Positions 31,220 through 48,363 of a DNA stretch of 64,000 nt are shown here, piece after piece. The DNA comes from Anagrus nilaparvatae (taxonomy: Eukaryota > Arthropoda > Insecta > Hymenoptera > Mymaridae): contig JAKSXM010000014.1 in assembly GCA_022575985.1 (NCBI GenBank), positions 18,538,001 through 18,602,000 on the forward strand, in the 5' to 3' direction. Below the pieces are notes generated by a model. That model searched no databases. It saw nothing but the letters and a program-made list of their open reading frames with translations, and was not told the DNA's origin. The position numbers and the translations under genes are program-made. Position 1 is the stretch's first letter; every line of letters starts with the position of its first letter.

Positions 31220-32010
31220 GTGAGTATGACAGCTGAATTTCTTTTCAGAGATAGCCAAGACCAAAACATACTCACTTTCTGTGGAAAATTTTTTTGGCCA
31301 AGGGTTCTGGAAAAAGTTACAGGTCCACAAAGTTGGCCAATTTTTCGGAAAAAAAAAGTGAAAGTGTGACAGCCCGGAATAGCCTAGATTTTTAGATTAA
31401 GCCAAAACATACTCACTTTAATTATGAGATTTTTCGGTATCTGGGTTCTGGACGAGTATGTCGGGCCATCAAAGTTCCGCCGTTTACCCGCGCTTTTTTT
31501 AAATTAGTTTGAAATAAAAAAATTTACAAAGTATAAATAAGAAAGCCCGAAATAGCCTAGATTTTCAGATTAGGCCAAAATATACTCAGTTTATTTAAGA
31601 GATTTTTCGATATCTGGGTTCTGGACGAGTATGTCGGGCCATCTAAGTTCCGCCGTTTACCCGCGCTTTTTTAATTAGTTTGAAATAAAAAAATTTACAA
31701 GGGATCAATTTTACAGTCAGAATCTTATGGTAGCGAGAAATATATATTTTTCCTCCGTAATATTAACGCTAAAATTAAGAGATTCTGACTATAAAATTGA
31801 TCCCTTGTAAATTTTTTTATTTAAAACTAATTTAAAAATAAAAGCGGGTAAACGGCGGAACTTTGATGGCCCGACATACTCGTCCAGAACCCAGATACCG
31901 AAAAATCTCATAATTAAAGTGAGTATGTTTTGGCTTTATTTAAAAATCTAGGCTATTCCGGGCTGTCATACTTTCACTTTTTTTTTCCAAAAAATTGGCC
32001 AATGGACTTT
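31220..32010. mobile_element. Palindromic repeat with an internal arm duplication
   Basis: The arm with CCAAAACATACTCACTTTAA and CTGGACGAGTATGTCGGGCC occurs forward at 31380-31500, again forward at 31540-31690, and inverted at 31800-31990. The centre near 31735 has a small hairpin around TTACAGTCAGAATCT. The family is shared with 13220-13720 and 53310-54010. Confidence 0.8.
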
Positions 32011-38044: not shown

Positions 38045-39310
38045 GTGATCGGATACAAAAAATTACTATAAACTAAATTTCTAAAACTTGTACTCTCATT
38101 AAAATAAATTAGATATGTCCAAAACGAAAAATAAATTTGGTGTTTTATGTATTTTTTTGTGAAAAAAATTTTAGGAAAAAAATTTTCAAAAAATTAAGTA
38201 TCAGATTGGAGATATCAAGTAAAAACCATACTTTCAAGTATAAGTACTTTCATAGAAATGAATGAGGTATTACATCCAAATTAAAAAAAAAAAGTATTTT
38301 GAGATTTTTTTAATAAACAAATGTTTGGAAAAAAAATTAGGTCTTAATTCGATAATGGTTTTGAAATATCACTAGTTACAATATTTTCAGATATTAGTAC
38401 TTTCATGGAATTAAATGAGGTATTACACCAAAAAAAAAAAAAAATATTGCAGTTTTTTTTATTTTTCTTTTTTTTTAATTTTGACAAAAAAGTTTTTAAA
38501 AAATTAAGTACCAGATCCAAAAAATAACAATAAACAAAGTTCTTAAAACTAGTACTTCCATGGAAATAAATTAGGTACTACGTCCAAAAAGAAAAAAAAA
38601 ATTTGTATTTTTTGTATTTTTTTGTGAAAAAAATTTTAGAAAAAAAATTTTCAGAAAAATAAGTATCCGATTCGAGATATCATTTGAAAACTATACTTTC
38701 AAATATAAGTACTTTCATGGAAATAAATGAGGTATTACATCCAAATTAAAAAAAAAAGGGGGGGTTTGAGATTGTTTGATAAAAAAATGTTTGAAAAAAA
38801 AATTAGGTCTTAATTCGATAATGGTTTTGAAATATCACTAGTTACAATATTTTCAGATATTAGTACTTTCATAGAATTAAATGAGGTATTACACCCAAAA
38901 AAAAAAATATTGCATTTTTTTTTATTTTTCTATTTTTTTAATTTTGACAAAAAAAATTTTGAAAAAATTAAGTACCAGATCCAAAAAATAACAATAAACA
39001 AAGTTCTTAAAACTAGTACTTCCATGGAAATAAATTAGGTACTACGTCCAAAAAGAAAAAAAAAATTTGTATTTTTTGTATTTTTTTGTGAAAAAAATTT
39101 TACAAAAAAAATTTTCAGAAAATTAAGTATCCGATTCGAGATATCATGTAAAAACCATACTTTCAAATATAAGTACTTTCATGGAAATAAATGAGGTATT
39201 ACATCCAAATCAAAAAAAAAAAAAAGTACCTCGAGCTTTTTTGGTGAAAAAATTTTTGAAAAAAAAATTAGGTCTTAATTCCATAATGTTTGTGAAATAT
39301 CACCGATTAC
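38045..39310 (+). repeat. Satellite array with a three-monomer higher-order unit
   Basis: The core AGTACTTTCATGGAAATAAA, followed by TGAGGTATTACATCC, recurs near 38087, 38245, 38396, 38552, 38708, 38866, 39016 and 39172, so the monomer is about 155 bp. Monomers fall into three types (A, B, C) repeated in order as a unit of about 463 bp: AAAACTAGTACTTCCATGGA at about 38545 recurs 464 bp later. The pattern is A-B-C, A-B-C, A-B. Poly-A and poly-T runs separate the cores. It ends in a CA microsatellite. Confidence 0.9.

Positions 39311-39320: not shown

Positions 39321-39353
<33 letters not shown>
39321..39353. repeat. (AC)n microsatellite
   Basis: About 16 perfect AC units at the end of the satellite array. 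Confidence 0.95.
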
Positions 39354-39357
<4 letters not shown>

Positions 39358-39480: not shown

Positions 39481-40025
39481 GGAAATGTCCATATATATGA
39501 TAAATCTTATTTAAATAAAAATATTTGAATTTTCCTTAATAATAAACATTTATATTTAATAGACTTATAATAATAACAATAATAATAATAACATTTATTC
39601 TTAATATTTTGATACTCAAAATAAAACTGTTTGAATGTTTACATTATTAAAAGATTATATTAAACCTCTGTTATTTGGTTATAAATTTAAAAATTTTGTC
39701 AGTTTCATTCTGCTCAGCATTAGGCAATGTTCAATATAACCTTAAAATTAAAAGAAAAAATATTTAATCCTGTTAAATTCGGTAAAATTTTAATCAAAAA
39801 GTGATATTAAAAAAAAAACTGTTTTTATGAATGTTTAGAATAAAATTGTTATTAAAATATTGTTTTACTTGAATAAAAAGTGTGTGTATATTTTATTTAT
39901 TATAACAAAATTATCTATTGTAGTGAAATCCAAGTGAATTAAATTAAGTTATTTTTTTCGTTCATTTAAAAATAATTTGTCGTCTTAAAAAAAAGTGTTA
40001 TGTTATATAAATTGAGTTTGTTAAA
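39481..40025 (+). promoter_or_regulatory. Presumed promoter and 5' UTR region of the BRCT-RBR gene
   Basis: This AT-rich stretch lies between the microsatellite and the start codon. It holds no RING, ankyrin or other coding block in frame with exon 1, and a TAA at 40008-40010 closes the frame. Many TATA-like words occur, so no single core promoter can be chosen. An upstream non-coding exon cannot be excluded. Confidence 0.3.
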
Positions 40026-43000
40026 ATGGCTGAAAGACCAATAAAAATAATTTATGGAGGCCAGCATACCGTTGTTATAGAAGAAATATTAAACGAATTC
40101 ATACAAACTTTTAATATACAATTAGAAAAGCAATTTGATAACACGATAACCCATGTAATTTTACCATCAGGTTATAAAAATTATGATTTTTGTATGAGTG
40201 TTGATTATCCAAAATACGTTAATGGTATTATTCATAAAAAATATGTTATATCATTTGATTGGGTTAAAGATTCTATAAAATATAAAATTTTGTTAAATGA
40301 AGAGCCATATGAATGTATAGACAATTGTTTTAATGAATATATCAGTAAAAAATCTAGATTGTCCAATGATTTATTTAAAAATTTTTCATTTACTTTTAAC
40401 GATAATAATATTCTAATTTATGAAGAAAATATTAATAATTCAAGTTTATTTAAATTTTTACAACAAGATTTAACGGTAATTTATTTTGGCTTTACTGAAA
40501 TTTGACTTTAGATTTTACAATATTAATAATCGTTATTTATTATTTCAGAATTTAATAACCAGTAACGGCGGAATTGTAACAAATGATGCTTATGCGTTTG
40601 GTGATAATAAAATTCATATCAATCTATTCGCAAAAGAAAATGGTATTACGGAGAACAAAGGTAATTTATGTCATATTTTTTATAAGGAATATTATTTTTA
40701 ATTTATTTTGTTTTGTTTTGTCAGACTTTTGGGCTTGAATTTGATTTTTAAAAAAATTTTTAAACATAAGTTTAGTTGTTTTTAACAGATTTAAATTAAA
40801 TGTAATTTTTTTGGCAGAACTAAAAATTAATTTAGAGTATTATCAAAAGAAAAGAATTTAAGATAAGAGTTTTAATTATCTTTTCCATAATTTAATAGCA
40901 AAAATAAAAATTTTATTTTACTCATAATTGACAATTTTGTTTTAATAACTAAGGAAAAAATTTAAAAAAATTTTTTAAACTAAAAGGGTCGGCAAAAAAG
41001 GTTTAAAATATTTTGTTGTTAAAAAAATAACTAAAAATAGACATTTTAGTTTTTTTGTTCAATTTTTAAAACATTTTTTATTTTTATTATAAATCCAGTA
41101 AAAAATGTTTTTCAAGAAATTATAGAAATATATCGTAAAATTCGATTCCGAGCTCAGAAAATCAATTTGAACTGAGCCTGAACGAGAAAATCCACAATTA
41201 TTTTATTTCCTTTAAGCATCAATGAAGAGCCTTATGAGTGTTTTATCTTAAAACAGACAAATGAATCATCAAAATTGTTTAAAAATTCACTTTTAGCCAA
41301 AAAATAAAATCCTTAAGATCCTTTCTGAAAGCATTGCATCAAAAAATTACGATTTAAAAAAAAACCATTTTAAAAATTTTTTAATTTTCCGCCAAGTCCC
41401 GTGAAAAAATTAAAGTTTTACTTCCAAGTTTAATAATCCGAAATTTTACATCGGCGTGGAAATGTTGTCTTTTGAATAGTTTTTAGGAATGGCGAGTCGT
41501 TAAGTCTTAATTGGTCCTTATTTAAAATTTTTTAAAATAAAATTGTCAATTGTGAAGATTTACAGCTTTTTAGAAAATAAGAACTTTTTTTAAAAATTGG
41601 TCCATAAAAATAGGTTAGCAAAAATCAAGAATTTAATCTTGGGAGCTAAAAATTTCGCGAAAAAATTTGAGGAGAGACATATTTTAGTTAATTAAAATAA
41701 AAACTGAAACTAATTTTTTTTTACCAATTTGTGCGACCTTTTAGTTCAGCCTTGCTTCAGTTGAAATGAATTCTAACATGTATAACATATTAGACTGACA
41801 AAAAAAAAACGACTTTTCGATTTTTTAAGGTACTCAAGCGTTTTTGGGTACCACTTTATGAAAAAAAAAGCCCTAGGTAAACCGCATCTAAAAATATTTA
41901 GTCGTTGGACTCGCCAAAGCGTTTTCGATTTTTCAAAATTGATTCAGGAGCGTCGGGGGAGATTACAGCTACTAAATTTAAGAGGCAACAAAAAAATAAA
42001 ACTTCGGGGGGTATTTCATAGTTTTTTTGGTTACTAAAAACGATGGAATCATTTATTTTAAATTATTTCTTTAAGGCAAAAAGTTATGAGCTAATTTCGG
42101 TCTTAAAAATATCAAAAATTGGACAGTTTTTGGCGTCAAAAACATGCTGCGGACTAAAAAATGTTAGAAATTATTTTAAAGGGGCATTTCGAATGATCAT
42201 TGGGTCACTAAAAACGATGAAATTGGTTATTTTTATTTATTCTTTACGGATTCAGAGTTATGCGCCAAATATTGTAGCTTGATTTCCCAAATTTAGCTTT
42301 TTTTTGAGTTGAATGACTGTCAAGCGTACAGATAACTTTTTTGAGCCTCTAGAAAGGTAAGTTATCATAGTTTAGTGTTTTTTGAACACCGATGCATTGG
42401 TTGCTTAGATTTTTTAATGTATTTTTATTATTCTATTTTATTTTTTTATTTTTTTTTTTTTTGCCTGGATGGGGGGAGACAAGCTCCAGAGCACCCGACT
42501 TAATTTAAAAGCCCCTAGCGCTCCACCTGTTAAAGTCCCCGTTGGTCCATCCTGGTCCCTTTAAGTAAGAGCCCTGGATGTCCCGGTATTGTTTTGTGTT
42601 TGTTTCCCTTAGATGGTGCTCGCGGTTAGTGTCCCAAAAGTGACAACCTGCAGATATCTTGCCTCTATAGGGAAGTCCAGACCTGGTTCCGTGCGAGCAT
42701 GGTCCCAGAATCACCCTTCCTTTGAGGGTTCGAATAACTGCTTAATTGCTCCCTTGTGTGTTAGTGTCACAGAAGTGACAACCTGCAGAGATCTTGCCTC
42801 TGTTGGGAAGTCCAGACCTGGTTCCATGCATTAAAGCATGATCCCAGAGTCACCCTTCCTTCGAGGGTCCGAATAACTGCATGGTTGCTACCTTGTGTGT
42901 TAGTGTTCCGAAGATGAAAACCAGAGGTCAGAATAACCCCCTTCAGGTTCTTCCGGCAATGACCGAACTCCAGGTTCCCCAGTTAGGGGCATCGATCAGG

Positions 43001-46000
43001 GCGCGCACAGACCTTTAGGCATAGCCCATAGACATATGTTACCGAGATCTTACCACAGTTCGGGTATACCTGTTGCAGGTTCACCTTAGGCTTCCCCCTC
43101 AGGTGGTCTCCGCCCTCCTATGAAGTTCTCGAGGCCTAGTGACCTTATGAAGTTCACTAGGCTCTGAGGCTTCAATGGTCCAACATCTTCTGTGTTCGTT
43201 AGTGAAAATTCGAGGTACCGTCTACGACGTTCCTCTAGCGCTGGGCAAGCCCAGATCAGATGTTCGGTGGTTTCTGTCGATTCATCGCAGAATCTGCAGT
43301 TCCGAATATCGTTTATGTTCCCCCATCTGTGATGGTTCAATACGGAGTGTCCCGTTATCCAGCCCACCACAACACGATTATATATGCATTGTTTGCTTAG
43401 ATTTTTTAATGTATTTTTATTATTTTATTATTTTTATTATTTTTATTATTTTTATTTTTTTATGTATTTTTTTATTTATTTATTATTTTTTTATTACAAC
43501 CAATGCTACGGTGTTCAAAAAACACTAAACTATGATAACTTACCTTTCTAGGGGCTCAAAAAAGTTATCTGTACGCTTGACAGTCATTCAACTCAAAAAA
43601 GTGCTAAATTTGGCAAATCAAGCTACAATATTTGGCGCATAACTCTGAATCCGTAAAGAATAAATAAAAATAACCAATTTCATCGTTTTTAGTGACCCAA
43701 TGATCATTCGAAATGCCCCTTTAAAATAATTTCTAAACATTTTTTAGTCCGCAGCATGTTTTTGACGCCAAAAACTGTCCAATTTTTGATATTTTTAAGA
43801 CCGAAATCAGCTCATAACTTTTTGCCTTAAAGAAATAATTTAAAATAAATGATTCCATCGTTTTTAGTAACCAAAAAAACTATGAAATACCCCCCGAAGT
43901 TTTATTTTTTTGTTGTCTTTTAAATTTAGTAGCTGTAATCCCCCCCGACGCTCCTGAACCAATTTTCAAAAATCGAAAACGCTTTGGCGCTGTCCAACGA
44001 TTAAATATTTTTAGATGCGGTTTACCTAGGGCTTTTTTTTCATAAAGTGGTACCCAAAAACGCTTGAGCACCTTAAAAAAACGAAAAGTCGTTTTTTTTG
44101 TCAGTCTAATATGTTATACATGATAGAATTCATTTCAACTGAAGCAAGGCTGAACTAAAAGGTCGCAAAAATTGGTAAAAAAAAATTAGTTTCAGTTTTT
44201 ATTTTAATTAACTAAAATATGTCTCTCCTCAAATTTTTTCGCGAAATTTTTAGCTCCCAAAATAAAATTCTTGATTTTTGCTAATTTCAGTAAAACTTTT
44301 TAATTTAACTCTAAATTTTGTATAGGTGTCACCTGTCACACTGCAATTTTTAATCACTAATATTCTCTCATGGCTATAGCCAATTAATTAATTATCCATT
44401 TTTTGCCCAAAATGACCAAGTTTTAAATTGCTACCAAAATTATAATTTTTTACGGCTTTGAGTCCCAAAAATTTTCAACAAATTTTAAGTTTTCAAAAAT
44501 TATTTACCAGTTTTTTTTTTTCGTTTTAATTTAGAATATATTAAAAAAATTTTATTTTTATCAGTACTTTTAAAAAGCGATATTTTAGCAGCAATTTAAA
44601 AGTTGGTAATTTTGAACAAAAATAGCCAATTGTTAGCTATAGCAATGAGAAATTTATTGAGAAAAATTGCGCTATACGAGGCTTAAAGGGTGACACTTAC
44701 ACAAAGGTAGTTGTCTGCACTTGTTAGAATAATTTGAATTTAAGGACTTCAAGGACTTTTATAATAATCAGAGAATATACGTTAAAACTGCTACAAGTCA
44801 ACTGACATGACCCATGCTCGTTTATGGTGTTAACGCACAAACCAGTTGTTTTTTTTTTTTTTTTAATTAGTAATGCAAAACAAATATTTCCTAAAAAACA
44901 AAAAGTTGAACTATAACTACACTAAAAAATTTTTGCATTAAAAATTACGAACACTCGATGAAAAGAGTTTTTTTCAAAAAAGATTTTCAATAGCTATCTA
45001 GAAACTCTTCATACGTTCAAAGTAAGGGTGTTTGGACTGAAATGGACCATTTTTGAGTTTTTAAAGGGTTAGTAGGGGTAGTTTTTATGAAAATGTACGA
45101 TTTTTTTTTGAATGGAGTCCCTGTAGTCAAATTTGCTGCTGAACCGAAATCTAATTTTTATTTTGAGATGCAACACCTCTGAATGCTCAAAAATTGGCAT
45201 AAAAAAATTAAAGAAATCGCACTTGAAAAAGATAAAGAAAAACTTAGCGTTCTATCTATTGAAAATCTTAATGTTTTCATTGAGAATCTGTAAACTTCTG
45301 CTAAAGGATTAAAATTATTGTATACAATTTTAAATTTGATATCGATTAGTAAATTTACCAACATGCTACTATCATTAGTAATTTTTGTAATATTATTAAT
45401 ACCTATATTGTTTATTAAAAGTCATAATATTTTTTGTTTGCTTTTTAGAAAATCTACCTAATTGTAAAACATTAAACCTGCATTGGAAATGGATTCTGCA
45501 TAGTCTTAAAGAGTATAAATTGAGGCCAATGAATTTTTATTTAATTGGAAAAATAGAAAACGTTCCAGAAAATTTAAAATATTTAATCTCAGATAATATT
45601 AATGAATCTTTAACAGAATTAAAAAATTTTCTCCCGAACCTTGATGAAGATTTCATAACAAGATATTTTAGATGTAATTTACAAACAGTATTTTGTAATA
45701 ATTCATTAGCACATAAAAATACATGGTTAAACACTTTAACGAATTATTTAATTGAAAATGGAGGTAATCATTTAAAAAAAGTAGAAGAAAAAAAAGTTCA
45801 ACCTAATGCAAATGAAATACATGAAAATTACGAACATCTAATTGGAATTTTCCCAAACATTGATCCAACTTATTTGTTGAAACAAATTGAAAATAAAAAA
45901 CCGGAAGTTGAAATAAATGATTTAATAAACAATTTGTTAGAAACAGAATATCCAACAAGAGATGATTACTTAAAGAAAATGAACATCAATGAACAGCAGA

Positions 46001-48363
46001 AAAAATTTGGTGAAAATTTTAACATCGATGAATTTTTAAAAAGCATTCCTAATCCTATTGAATATTTTGAAGATCCAAATAGAAAAAATAAATGGGATTT
46101 ATTTGGATTTGACTTTTTAAAAGCTCATTTCAATAAGCATAAGGTAAATTATTATGTAAATTAAATTTTTTGATGAAATATTTATTTTCTATAACTTTTA
46201 TAGGTTTTAACTATAAAAAAAGTGTATAAAGATAATAATTTCAATTTGAGCTTGTCAGCAAATGCTTTACGCACTTTAGATACAGACATGAAGACAAAAA
46301 GATATGCATACCAATATCCATGTGATAATATTCCAATATTACAAGAGGTTGCTTATATAAAATATCAGGATGAAATAAAAAAAAAATTGGATGAAAAAAA
46401 AAATTTAGAAGATGAGTTATTTAAATTAATGGAGGTAGGTATTTAGGACACTATCTTTTACTTTGAGGACGCTGTTTCCAGCACTTACATTTTGAAATCA
46501 AGATTTTTTAACCATATTTATTTATTCATAATAATTTTTAAGGAAAGATACAATTCTTTTGAATATTTGATACAAGAATATAAAAAAATTCAAAATGTTT
46601 ATTTGTTTAAACAAATATGATTTCTTAAATTTTTGAAATTTGTGGCTCATAAAAGCTTGAGATTCCAGATTTGGGAACTTGGATCAAAATTCTGCTTTGC
46701 TCATATTGAAGATCATTTAATTCTAGGGGGAGGTATCATGGAAAAATTTGCGCTAAACCTTTCCAGTAATAAGTTATGGCTATTTGTTTATAAATTTTAG
46801 AGAATTTAAAAATTTTTTTTTTAAACAATTAGCTGTAACTCATTACTGGAAAGGTTTAGCGAAAAATTTTCCATGATACCTTCCCCTAGAATTAAATGAT
46901 CTTCAATATGAGCTAAGCAGAATTTTGATTCAAGTTGCCCAGATCTGAAATATCCGGCTTTTATGAGCCAAAAATTTCAAAAATTTAACATGTCGTATTT
47001 ATTTAAACAGGTAAACATTAAAATTTTTTTAAGTATTTTTGTACCGAATGCTGAAGACTTTTTCATTATTATAAATAAATATGTATGGTTAAAAAATCTT
47101 AATTATGAAATGTGCTGCGTGGAAACACCCAGTGGCAGAGAGAGCGACCTTAAGTTTCTTAAACAACTTATCTAAAATATATTTTTTTTAGGAACAAAAT
47201 CTCTTGGTTAATTGTGAATGCTGTTTCAATGAAAAATGCATGCCCGAAAAATGCATTGAATGTAATAAAGGACATAATTTTTGCCAAGACTGCCTAATAG
47301 CAGGAGTGGAAACTGCTTTAGCAGACGGAAAATATAGAATAAATTGTTTTTCACAATGTGAAAGTGAACTTCCATTAAGCACGTTACAAAAATTATTGCC
47401 TGCCGAAAAATTTAGTCAATTTTTAAAAAACAATCAATTACAAGAAATTGAAGCTGCGGGCATCACAGGATTGGAGACTTGTCCTTTCTGTTCAGAATTT
47501 GTAACGATTCCACCTGTCGAAGACAAAATTTTTAGATGTCTTAACTCCAACTGTATGAAAGAATCGTGCAGGTAAAACAATGAAATTTTAATTAATTTTA
47601 AAATAATATTAAAAACTTCCTTAAAAAGTAACAACCCATCTTGATCTATAAAAAAAATTCAAATACTAAAATCAGTAGAAACAGTATACAACTAGTCAGA
47701 CAAAAAATTGTTTAAATATATATTTTATCTTTCAGATCCTGCAAAAAAGCAAACCACATACCTTTTAAATGTAACGAAAAGGAAGTAAAAGAGGAAAATT
47801 TACGTAAGTTAATCGAAGAGAAGATGACGGAAGCTCTGATAAGAAATTGCGTTAAATGCAAAAAACCATTTGTGAAAGAAACAGGGTGTAATAAAATGAT
47901 ATGTCCAGCATGCGGTGCTAAAATGTGCTATATTTGCAACAAAGAAATAACAGGTTATGATCATTTTAATGCCCAAGGTGGTGCTCGTACAGATTTGTAA
48001 GTAAATATTATTAGAATTAATTATCGAAATAATATAAAATCTAAATTAATTTCAAATATATCAATAAGATGCCCTCTGTGGACTGATGACAAGTACTTGG
48101 AGGCTGAGGGAGTTCGGATGATTGGTGAAGACCTAAAAAATCTAGTACTTAAACAAAATCCAGAACTAAATGTTAATGTGGAAACATTATTACCCAACTT
48201 GCCAAGAAAAATTGGAGGTGCGCATACATACGTGCCTAATGCATACGAGCAACCTGTAAGTTAAATATTTTATCTTAATTAAGTTATATACTTAATTTTT
48301 ATTATTAAATTTTAGGCTCATATTAAAAAAATGATACAAGAAATTAATGAAAATAAGGAATAA
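40026..48363 (+). CDS. Tandem-BRCT / RBR E3 ubiquitin ligase fusion (BARD1-like BRCTs + RNF216-like RBR)
   Basis: Spliced model, seen directly: exons 40026-40475, 40549-40660, 45449-46143, 46204-46434, 47192-47571, 47736-47996, 48069-48255 and 48316-48363 (TAA stop). All junctions are GT/AG, the phases fit, and the total is 2364 nt, or 787 residues. Order: BRCT1 about 5-98; BRCT2 about 115-220; two CUE-like helical stretches (about 240-290 and 315-357, the second with FPNIDP); a charged linker to about 496; RING1 from Cys504; IBR about 573-635; RING2 from Cys661 with catalytic-type Cys674 in GCNKM, then GYDHF and CPLWTD. From family knowledge, RBR ligases pass ubiquitin through a RING2 cysteine thioester, and BARD1/BRCA1-type BRCT pairs read phosphopeptides or ubiquitinated nucleosomes. 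A nuclear, chromatin-directed ligase is my inference. The ATG is the first Met after an in-frame TAA at 40008-40010. No N-terminal RING or ankyrin repeats are seen upstream. Confidence 0.88.
42620..42935 (-). repeat. Tandem repeat of about 135-139 bp in the LINE 3' UTR
   Basis: The block with TGACAACCTGCAGA, TCTTGCCTCT and AAGTCCAGACCTGGTTCC occurs at 42641 and again at 42776. A third, partial unit begins near 42900 with TTAGTGTTCCGAAGATGA. Two units are near full length and the third is broken. Repeats in 3' UTRs occur in several LINE groups and may be read by the element's own reverse transcriptase; that role is not shown here. Confidence 0.85.
43086..43385 (-). pseudogene. C-terminal remnant of LINE reverse-transcriptase polyprotein
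   Basis: The open frame runs into the 5' truncation point, so only about 100 residues remain. It contains [11 protein letters not shown] followed by [18 protein letters not shown], a C-x2-C-x8-H-x4-C zinc motif typical of the extreme C-terminus of non-LTR polyproteins, then a stop at 43086-43088. No reverse-transcriptase or endonuclease domain is left, so it cannot mobilise itself. The frame has no internal stop, which suggests a fairly recent insertion. Confidence 0.85.
44326..44706. mobile_element. Small palindromic element with GTGTCAC ends in intron 2
   Basis: GGTGTCACCTGTCACACTGC at the left is answered by GGGTGACACTTACAC at the right. Both arms contain an inverted TATAGCCAATT word. The same arm sequence appears at about 24150-24260, 25880-26020 and 12300-12440, so this is a dispersed family. 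There is no coding capacity. Confidence 0.65.
46452..47155. mobile_element. Palindromic element filling intron 4
   Basis: Arms of about 340 bp are inverted around about 46805. Pairs include CATTACTGGAAAGGTTTAGC near 46850 with its complement near 46760, and TAACCATATTTATTTATTCA near 46510 with an inverted copy near 47070. Intron 4 (46435-47191) is almost entirely this element, lying between the linker exon and RING1. Splice signals on both sides remain intact. Confidence 0.8.
47192..48255 (+). other. Exons 5-7: RING1-IBR-RING2 catalytic module (RNF216/TRIAD3 type)
   Basis: RING1 ligands begin with a C-E-C-C cluster (Cys504, 506, 507), then Cys517, Cys520, His524, Cys527 and Cys530. IBR ligands include Cys593, 596, 612, 617, 622, 625 and 635. 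RING2 has Cys661, 664, 679, 682, 687 and 690 around Cys674 (codon 47887-47889), the position of the thioester-forming cysteine in RBR ligases. The CECC start of RING1, the IEEKMTEA helix before RING2 and the GYDHF tail are shared with RNF216 rather than with Parkin, HOIP or Ariadne ligases. No key cysteine appears to be missing, so the ligase should be catalytically competent. Confidence 0.9.

Follow-up and report, generated by a model that had tools for sequence, protein, structure and literature searches.

Within the 64,000-nucleotide window (the whole stretch of DNA analysed), positions 40026 to 48363 of the forward strand contain a gene predicted to encode a protein of 787 amino acids. When the gene was rebuilt from the sequence, eight exons with compatible phases gave 2364 nt including the stop codon, and all seven introns were GT-AG. 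This reproduced exactly the gene model in the first-pass annotation, which had described an eight-exon, phase-compatible frame of 787 residues running from a BRCT pair to an RBR (RING1-IBR-RING2) module. The features of the gene are as follows:

40026..40475, + strand: exon 1, residues 1-150, with the start codon, BRCT1 (alignment from residue 2; Pfam match at 20-84) and the first part of BRCT2
40549..40660, + strand: exon 2, residues 151-188 (codon 188 is split), the middle of BRCT2
40661..45448, + strand: intron 2, 4788 nt, GT-AG, containing a long-inverted-repeat element
45449..46143, + strand: exon 3, the fusion exon, residues 188-419, with the end of BRCT2 (~residue 222, base 45552) and the RNF216 half from residue 243 (base 45613)
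46204..46434, + strand: exon 4, residues 420-496, the RNF216 region preceding RING1
47192..47571, + strand: exon 5, RING1, whose cysteines start at C504, and the greater part of the IBR
47736..47996, + strand: exon 6, the end of the IBR and RING2
47887..47889, + strand: codon of C674, which aligns with C688, the active-site cysteine of RNF216 (replaced by Ala in the 8eb0 chain)
48069..48255, + strand: exon 7, a CPLW motif and the C-terminal RNF216 extension
48316..48363, + strand: exon 8, the final 15 codons and the stop codon TAA

The softest splice of this gene model is that of intron 2, which is supported by the continuity of BRCT2 across the intron. The longest stop-to-stop frame in the window is that of exon 3 (254 codons), and the second longest is that of exon 1 (164 codons). 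The in-frame codon score of exon 1 (0.089 per codon) exceeded all 2208 values obtained beyond the gene from stretches of 450 nt, which reached 0.027 at most, and exon 2 scored positively in its own frame only; because these scores were trained on the gene's own RNF216 part, they show that the two halves are alike and are not an independent standard. Eight other long frames of the window were scanned and gave no host-gene match, and the window has no match in Rfam or in a tRNA scan.

The BRCT pair and the RBR module

Pfam identified BRCT1 (PF00533) at residues 20-84 with an E value of 4.2e-4; its score was 20.9 bits in the whole protein (cut-off, 21.3) and 21.9 bits, just over that cut-off, on exon 1 alone. 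BRCT2 (PF16589, BRCT_2) was identified at residues 147-218 with an E value of 3.4e-5 and 24.5 bits, below the cut-off of 27.3. Alignment of residues 1-222 against the 177635 distinct sequences of the PDB gave 25 matches at E ≤8.4e-4, every one of them BRCA1 or BARD1; the only other entries up to E 10 were two of microcephalin (E 1.2 and 1.4). The top match, BRCA1 1l0b (E 3.3e-6), aligned with residues 2-220 and was the one match to cover both repeats, with the Trp helix that closes BRCT2 included. BARD1 rows and the remaining BRCA1 rows aligned on BRCT1 only. The Pfam and PDB matches agree with the tandem BRCT claimed in the first-pass annotation. Its term “BARD1-type” is better widened to BRCA1/BARD1-type, with either parent possible; an assignment to BARD1 itself does not follow, given that the top match is BRCA1 and that BARD1 aligned on BRCT1 only. 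NCBIfam returned nothing on residues 1-222, and the AlphaFold model of exon 1, computed without an alignment, had a pLDDT of 37.8, which leaves the BRCT fold unconfirmed by structure.

No RING was found ahead of the BRCT domains: the BRCA1 BRCT alignment begins at residue 2, and the start codon at 40026 is preceded by an in-frame TAA 15 nt upstream, at 40008-40010. Scanning the open frames in the window for a C3HC4 pattern also found none, a weak result in that the pattern misses the RBR's own RING1 and intron-split RINGs as well.

The phosphate anchors of the BRCA1 BRCT domains are given as S1655, G1656 and K1702 (PMC4728184). Based on a single phmmer alignment to BRCA1, of moderate accuracy (0.74), the counterparts of these residues are G11 (anchor lost), G12 and K63 (both kept). 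In the same alignment, R1699 corresponds to D60, and L1701, F1704, N1774, M1775 and L1839 of the second pocket correspond to P62, V65, N135, I136 and L204. Because two of the three phosphate anchors remain, a changed or weakened phosphopeptide preference appears as likely as a kept one.

Residues 501-721 matched the RNF216 structure 7m4m with an E value of 9e-35, and parkin (0.0043) and ARIH2 (0.012) followed far behind. RING1, IBR and RING2 occur in order, and in the 7m4m alignment the human RNF216 cysteines of all three domains face cysteines, with the exception of one late RING1 cysteine and the RING2 cysteine after HF. C674, in RING2, aligned with C688 of RNF216. The 8eb0 chain has Ala at this position, and C688A is described as an active-site mutant of RNF216 (PMC9834252). 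The complete RING1-IBR-RING2 of RNF216 type reported in the first-pass annotation is thus present, and its putative zinc-ligand and catalytic cysteines place the protein in the RBR E3 ligase family, RNF216 subfamily. Because the RBR has an active-site cysteine, the thioester chemistry that the same annotation proposed is the expected mechanism, as predicted from sequence. At C679 and C682 (47902-47913), RING2 has a C-x-x-C where human RNF216 and the insect relatives with displayed letters have C-x-C. Among the relatives, one (P0012) has Trp in place of the first cysteine of this C-x-C, and a fungal protein (P0013) also has C-x-x-C.

The similarity to RNF216 extends beyond the catalytic module. 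Using BLAST, we identified homology to 31 insect or insect-like relatives that starts at residues 243-331, before the RBR, and runs to the C-terminus, with 46% identity to a Copidosoma protein over residues 243-778; for the fungal, nemertean and other remaining relatives, homology starts at residues 463-607. The protein is closer to RNF216 than to other RBRs. A UBA-like helical domain is hinted at between the BRCT and RBR halves.

Joining of the two halves and distribution among relatives

The end of BRCT2 (~residue 222) and the start of RNF216 homology (residue 243) both lie within exon 3, in a frame that is open from 45400 to 46161. The acceptor of exon 3 is pyrimidine-rich (15 of 19 positions) and its phase fits the end of exon 2; a frame that continued past exon 2 into the intron would meet a stop after 13 codons. 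Intron 2 splits BRCT2, and the score of this domain can therefore be used to check the join between exons 2 and 3. The real exon 3 tail gave BRCT_2 scores of 22.8 bits on residues 101-222, 23.9 bits without residue 188 and with one more residue at the end, and 24.5 bits in the whole protein; 12 shuffled tails gave 12.6-13.8 bits in five cases and no listed match in the other seven. No BRCT_2 match was listed for residues 101-187 alone or with one wrong-frame tail, and exon 3 alone gave no BRCT match, as expected of a 35-residue end piece. Based on the shuffle and frame tests, exon 3 thus gives an in-phase end of BRCT2 that continues unbroken into RNF216.

We fetched 38 related proteins and scanned 19 of them (17 from named insects) with Pfam at E up to 1; a BRCT domain was absent in all 19. 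The first-pass annotation had stated that RNF216 is not known to carry BRCT domains in animals. The protein search suggested there did recover RNF216-type relatives; the architecture of the fusion, however, appeared in none of the 19 scanned. Precomputed Pfam listings of the 38 relatives contain neither PF00533 nor PF16589; these listings include accessions that could not be matched to a name, such as PF28408, and the BRCT2 of the window protein itself would also miss their cut-off. Residues 1-232 aligned to none of the 38 relatives with phmmer, and the best BLAST E value was 0.52. A protein search with the N-terminal region, covering 2144 candidates, gave no match. Overall, the protein searches gave 14, 0 and 31 matches, drawn from candidates of ~433-1377 aa that share 5-residue words (in the search with 14 matches, the 7995 candidates sharing most words were scored), and longer, unannotated or divergent relatives could escape them. 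Some relatives are N-terminally short: the Eretmocerus protein has 442 aa, and the Ignelater protein is marked partial. Searches for related loci in viral contigs and genome contigs confirmed none. Because none of the 19 scanned relatives has a BRCT domain, the fusion is likely confined to one lineage, with room for unseen carriers.

TBLASTN alignment of the 38 relatives identified no N-terminal RNF216 exons within intron 2 or in other parts of the window (none outside 45.4-48.4 kb at E <0.38), and a scan of the window for three motifs from the N-termini of relatives was negative. In a 28-row tree, the proteins closest by path length were those of Eretmocerus and Copidosoma, both Chalcidoidea, in a grouping that is not well supported. 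The end branch of the fusion protein is 1.01 changes per column, versus a median of 0.28; a branch of this length would suit either a copy that evolves fast or a lineage that is distant.

Taken together, the domain matches and the continuity of exon 3 make it probable that this is a lineage-specific insect fusion gene, most likely hymenopteran, in which an RNF216-type RBR ligase, or a duplicate copy of one, carries an N-terminal BRCA1/BARD1-type tandem BRCT pair. The first-pass annotation had proposed that the lineage swapped the BRCA1/BARD1 RING for an RBR module, which would be one conceivable origin. Because the catalytic part is homologous to insect RNF216, a description no less apt is that of an RNF216, or a duplicate of it, that gained BRCT domains and is without the long N-terminus of many relatives; an RNF216 that gained a BRCT reader is the most likely origin.

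Possible function and alternative readings

Compared with RNF216/TRIAD3, the protein has the same domain order and catalytic cysteine and the similarity given above to the Copidosoma protein and to 7m4m, whereas the N-terminal BRCT pair, the C-x-x-C of RING2 and the absence from the window of the three N-terminal motifs set it apart. BRCA1 and BARD1 pair BRCT readers with a RING. The protein shares their tandem BRCT pair (25 of 25 PDB matches at E <0.001 are BRCA1 or BARD1); however, its BRCT domains are N-terminal, no RING precedes them, and the catalytic module is an RBR. With no RING ahead of the BRCT domains, its sequence places it as an RBR/RNF216 family member with a new domain partner and not as a member of the BRCA1/BARD1 family, and it may work like a one-chain BRCA1-BARD1. 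A working analogy is offered by RNF8 and CHFR, FHA-RING ligases in which a single chain both reads phosphopeptides and acts as a ubiquitin ligase, although their reader is FHA and not BRCT, and their ligase is a RING and not an RBR.

In the mechanism that we propose, the BRCT pair would dock on a partner, either a phosphoprotein or a chromatin factor, and would thereby supply targeting. In RBR ligases, ubiquitin moves from the E2 to a cysteine of RING2 and from there to the target. Here E2~ubiquitin would bind RING1, and C674 would take over the ubiquitin in a thioester before handing it to the docked target. RNF216 is reported to be specific for K63 linkages (PMC6411869, PMC9834252), and the chains would most likely be K63, as in RNF216. 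Because K63 di-ubiquitin is reported to activate RNF216 allosterically (PMC9834252), a BRCT-recruited enzyme of this type would be best switched on where K63 chains are already present, such as at DNA breaks, and we infer that ubiquitin chains might be laid on chromatin there. The full version of this proposal is tentative and on balance doubtful: a one-chain reader-writer whose BRCT pair takes an RBR specific for K63 to chromatin that is phosphorylated or ubiquitylated. K63 chains already present there would switch the RBR on and so give a feed-forward ubiquitin signal at breaks, and in this insect lineage that signal would take the place of the BRCA1-BARD1 RING heterodimer or circumvent it. 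The chromatin- or phosphoprotein-directed ligase of the first-pass annotation is no more than plausible, with G12 and K63 retained and the counterparts of S1655 and R1699 replaced by G11 and D60.

The same residues bear on a reading in which the fusion is real, the BRCT pair is a dimerisation or scaffold part and not a phospho or chromatin reader, and the enzyme acts in the usual pathways of RNF216. The changes at S1655, R1699, L1701 and F1704 (to G11, D60, P62 and V65) and the scores of both Pfam BRCT matches, at or under their cut-offs, are consistent with this reading; however, the counterparts of G1656, K1702, N1774 and L1839 are kept (G12, K63, N135 and L204) and M1775 is replaced by Ile, and we regard it as rather unlikely. 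It is quite possible, if short of probable, that the fusion is a fast-evolving, neofunctionalised second copy, with an ordinary RNF216 and/or BRCA1/BARD1 elsewhere in the genome. The end branch of 1.01 versus 0.28 changes per column points in that direction, although a lineage that is distant or a genome rich in AT may instead account for it; as regards this protein, the duplicate-copy reading is compatible with a BRCT-RNF216 fusion.

Two neighbouring genes or an assembly join would be a more basic objection, with a small BRCT gene made of exons 1 and 2 and an RNF216 gene starting near exon 3, for example at M215. A 4.8-kb intron 2 that contains a mobile element and the lack of BRCT domains in the 19 scanned relatives would suit this arrangement. 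Against it, exon 3 carries the last part of BRCT2 and the start of RNF216 in one frame, behind a pyrimidine-rich acceptor (15 of 19) in the phase of exon 2, residues 101-187 alone give no BRCT_2 match, and exon 2 read-through soon stops; we consider separate genes very unlikely.

The architecture is surprising and its sequence support is solid. A natural BRCT-RBR chimera would test whether reader-ligase pairing, as opposed to a particular RING chemistry, is what repair requires; it could also bring an enzyme of RNF216 type to chromatin in one lineage or more. Among the matches listed (20 of 92 and 8 of 53), the open-access literature contained no BRCT and RBR in one protein, and the five papers with both RNF216 and BRCT and the two with both TRIAD3 and BRCT appear to be ubiquitin or DNA-damage work on other subjects. 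Insects vary in their retention of the BRCA1 complex: members have reportedly been lost from Drosophila while other species of such lineages have them, and in Aedes BRCA1 and its partners were reportedly not found (PMC3969565, PMC6849265).

Repeats and mobile elements in and near the gene

Intron 2 contains a long inverted-repeat element at 41615-44284, with arms of 193, 273 and 248 nt that are 95-98% complementary; the arms flank part of a non-LTR retrotransposon, recognised by a zf-RVT match at 43089-43424 on the minus strand (E 0.0013). Intron 4 is mostly a palindromic element (46473-47127) with arms of 122, 93 and 63 nt that are 79-91% complementary, and a short open frame that lies in and next to its left arm has the look of an additional exon. 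As an optional exon of this gene, this 54-nt in-phase segment (46543-46596) is disfavoured: by eye it has only weak donors (GTTTAT), its frame enters the palindromic element (arm 46583-46675), and it would add 18 residues before RING1 that are absent from the relatives whose sequences were displayed.

Just upstream of the gene, a tandem array at 38052-39303 has 2.7 copies of a 464-bp unit and is followed by an AC dinucleotide run at 39321-39357. The GC content of the window is ~28%; at 31371-31700, within a locally GC-richer stretch, there are 1.9 copies of a 173-bp unit with 93% matches.
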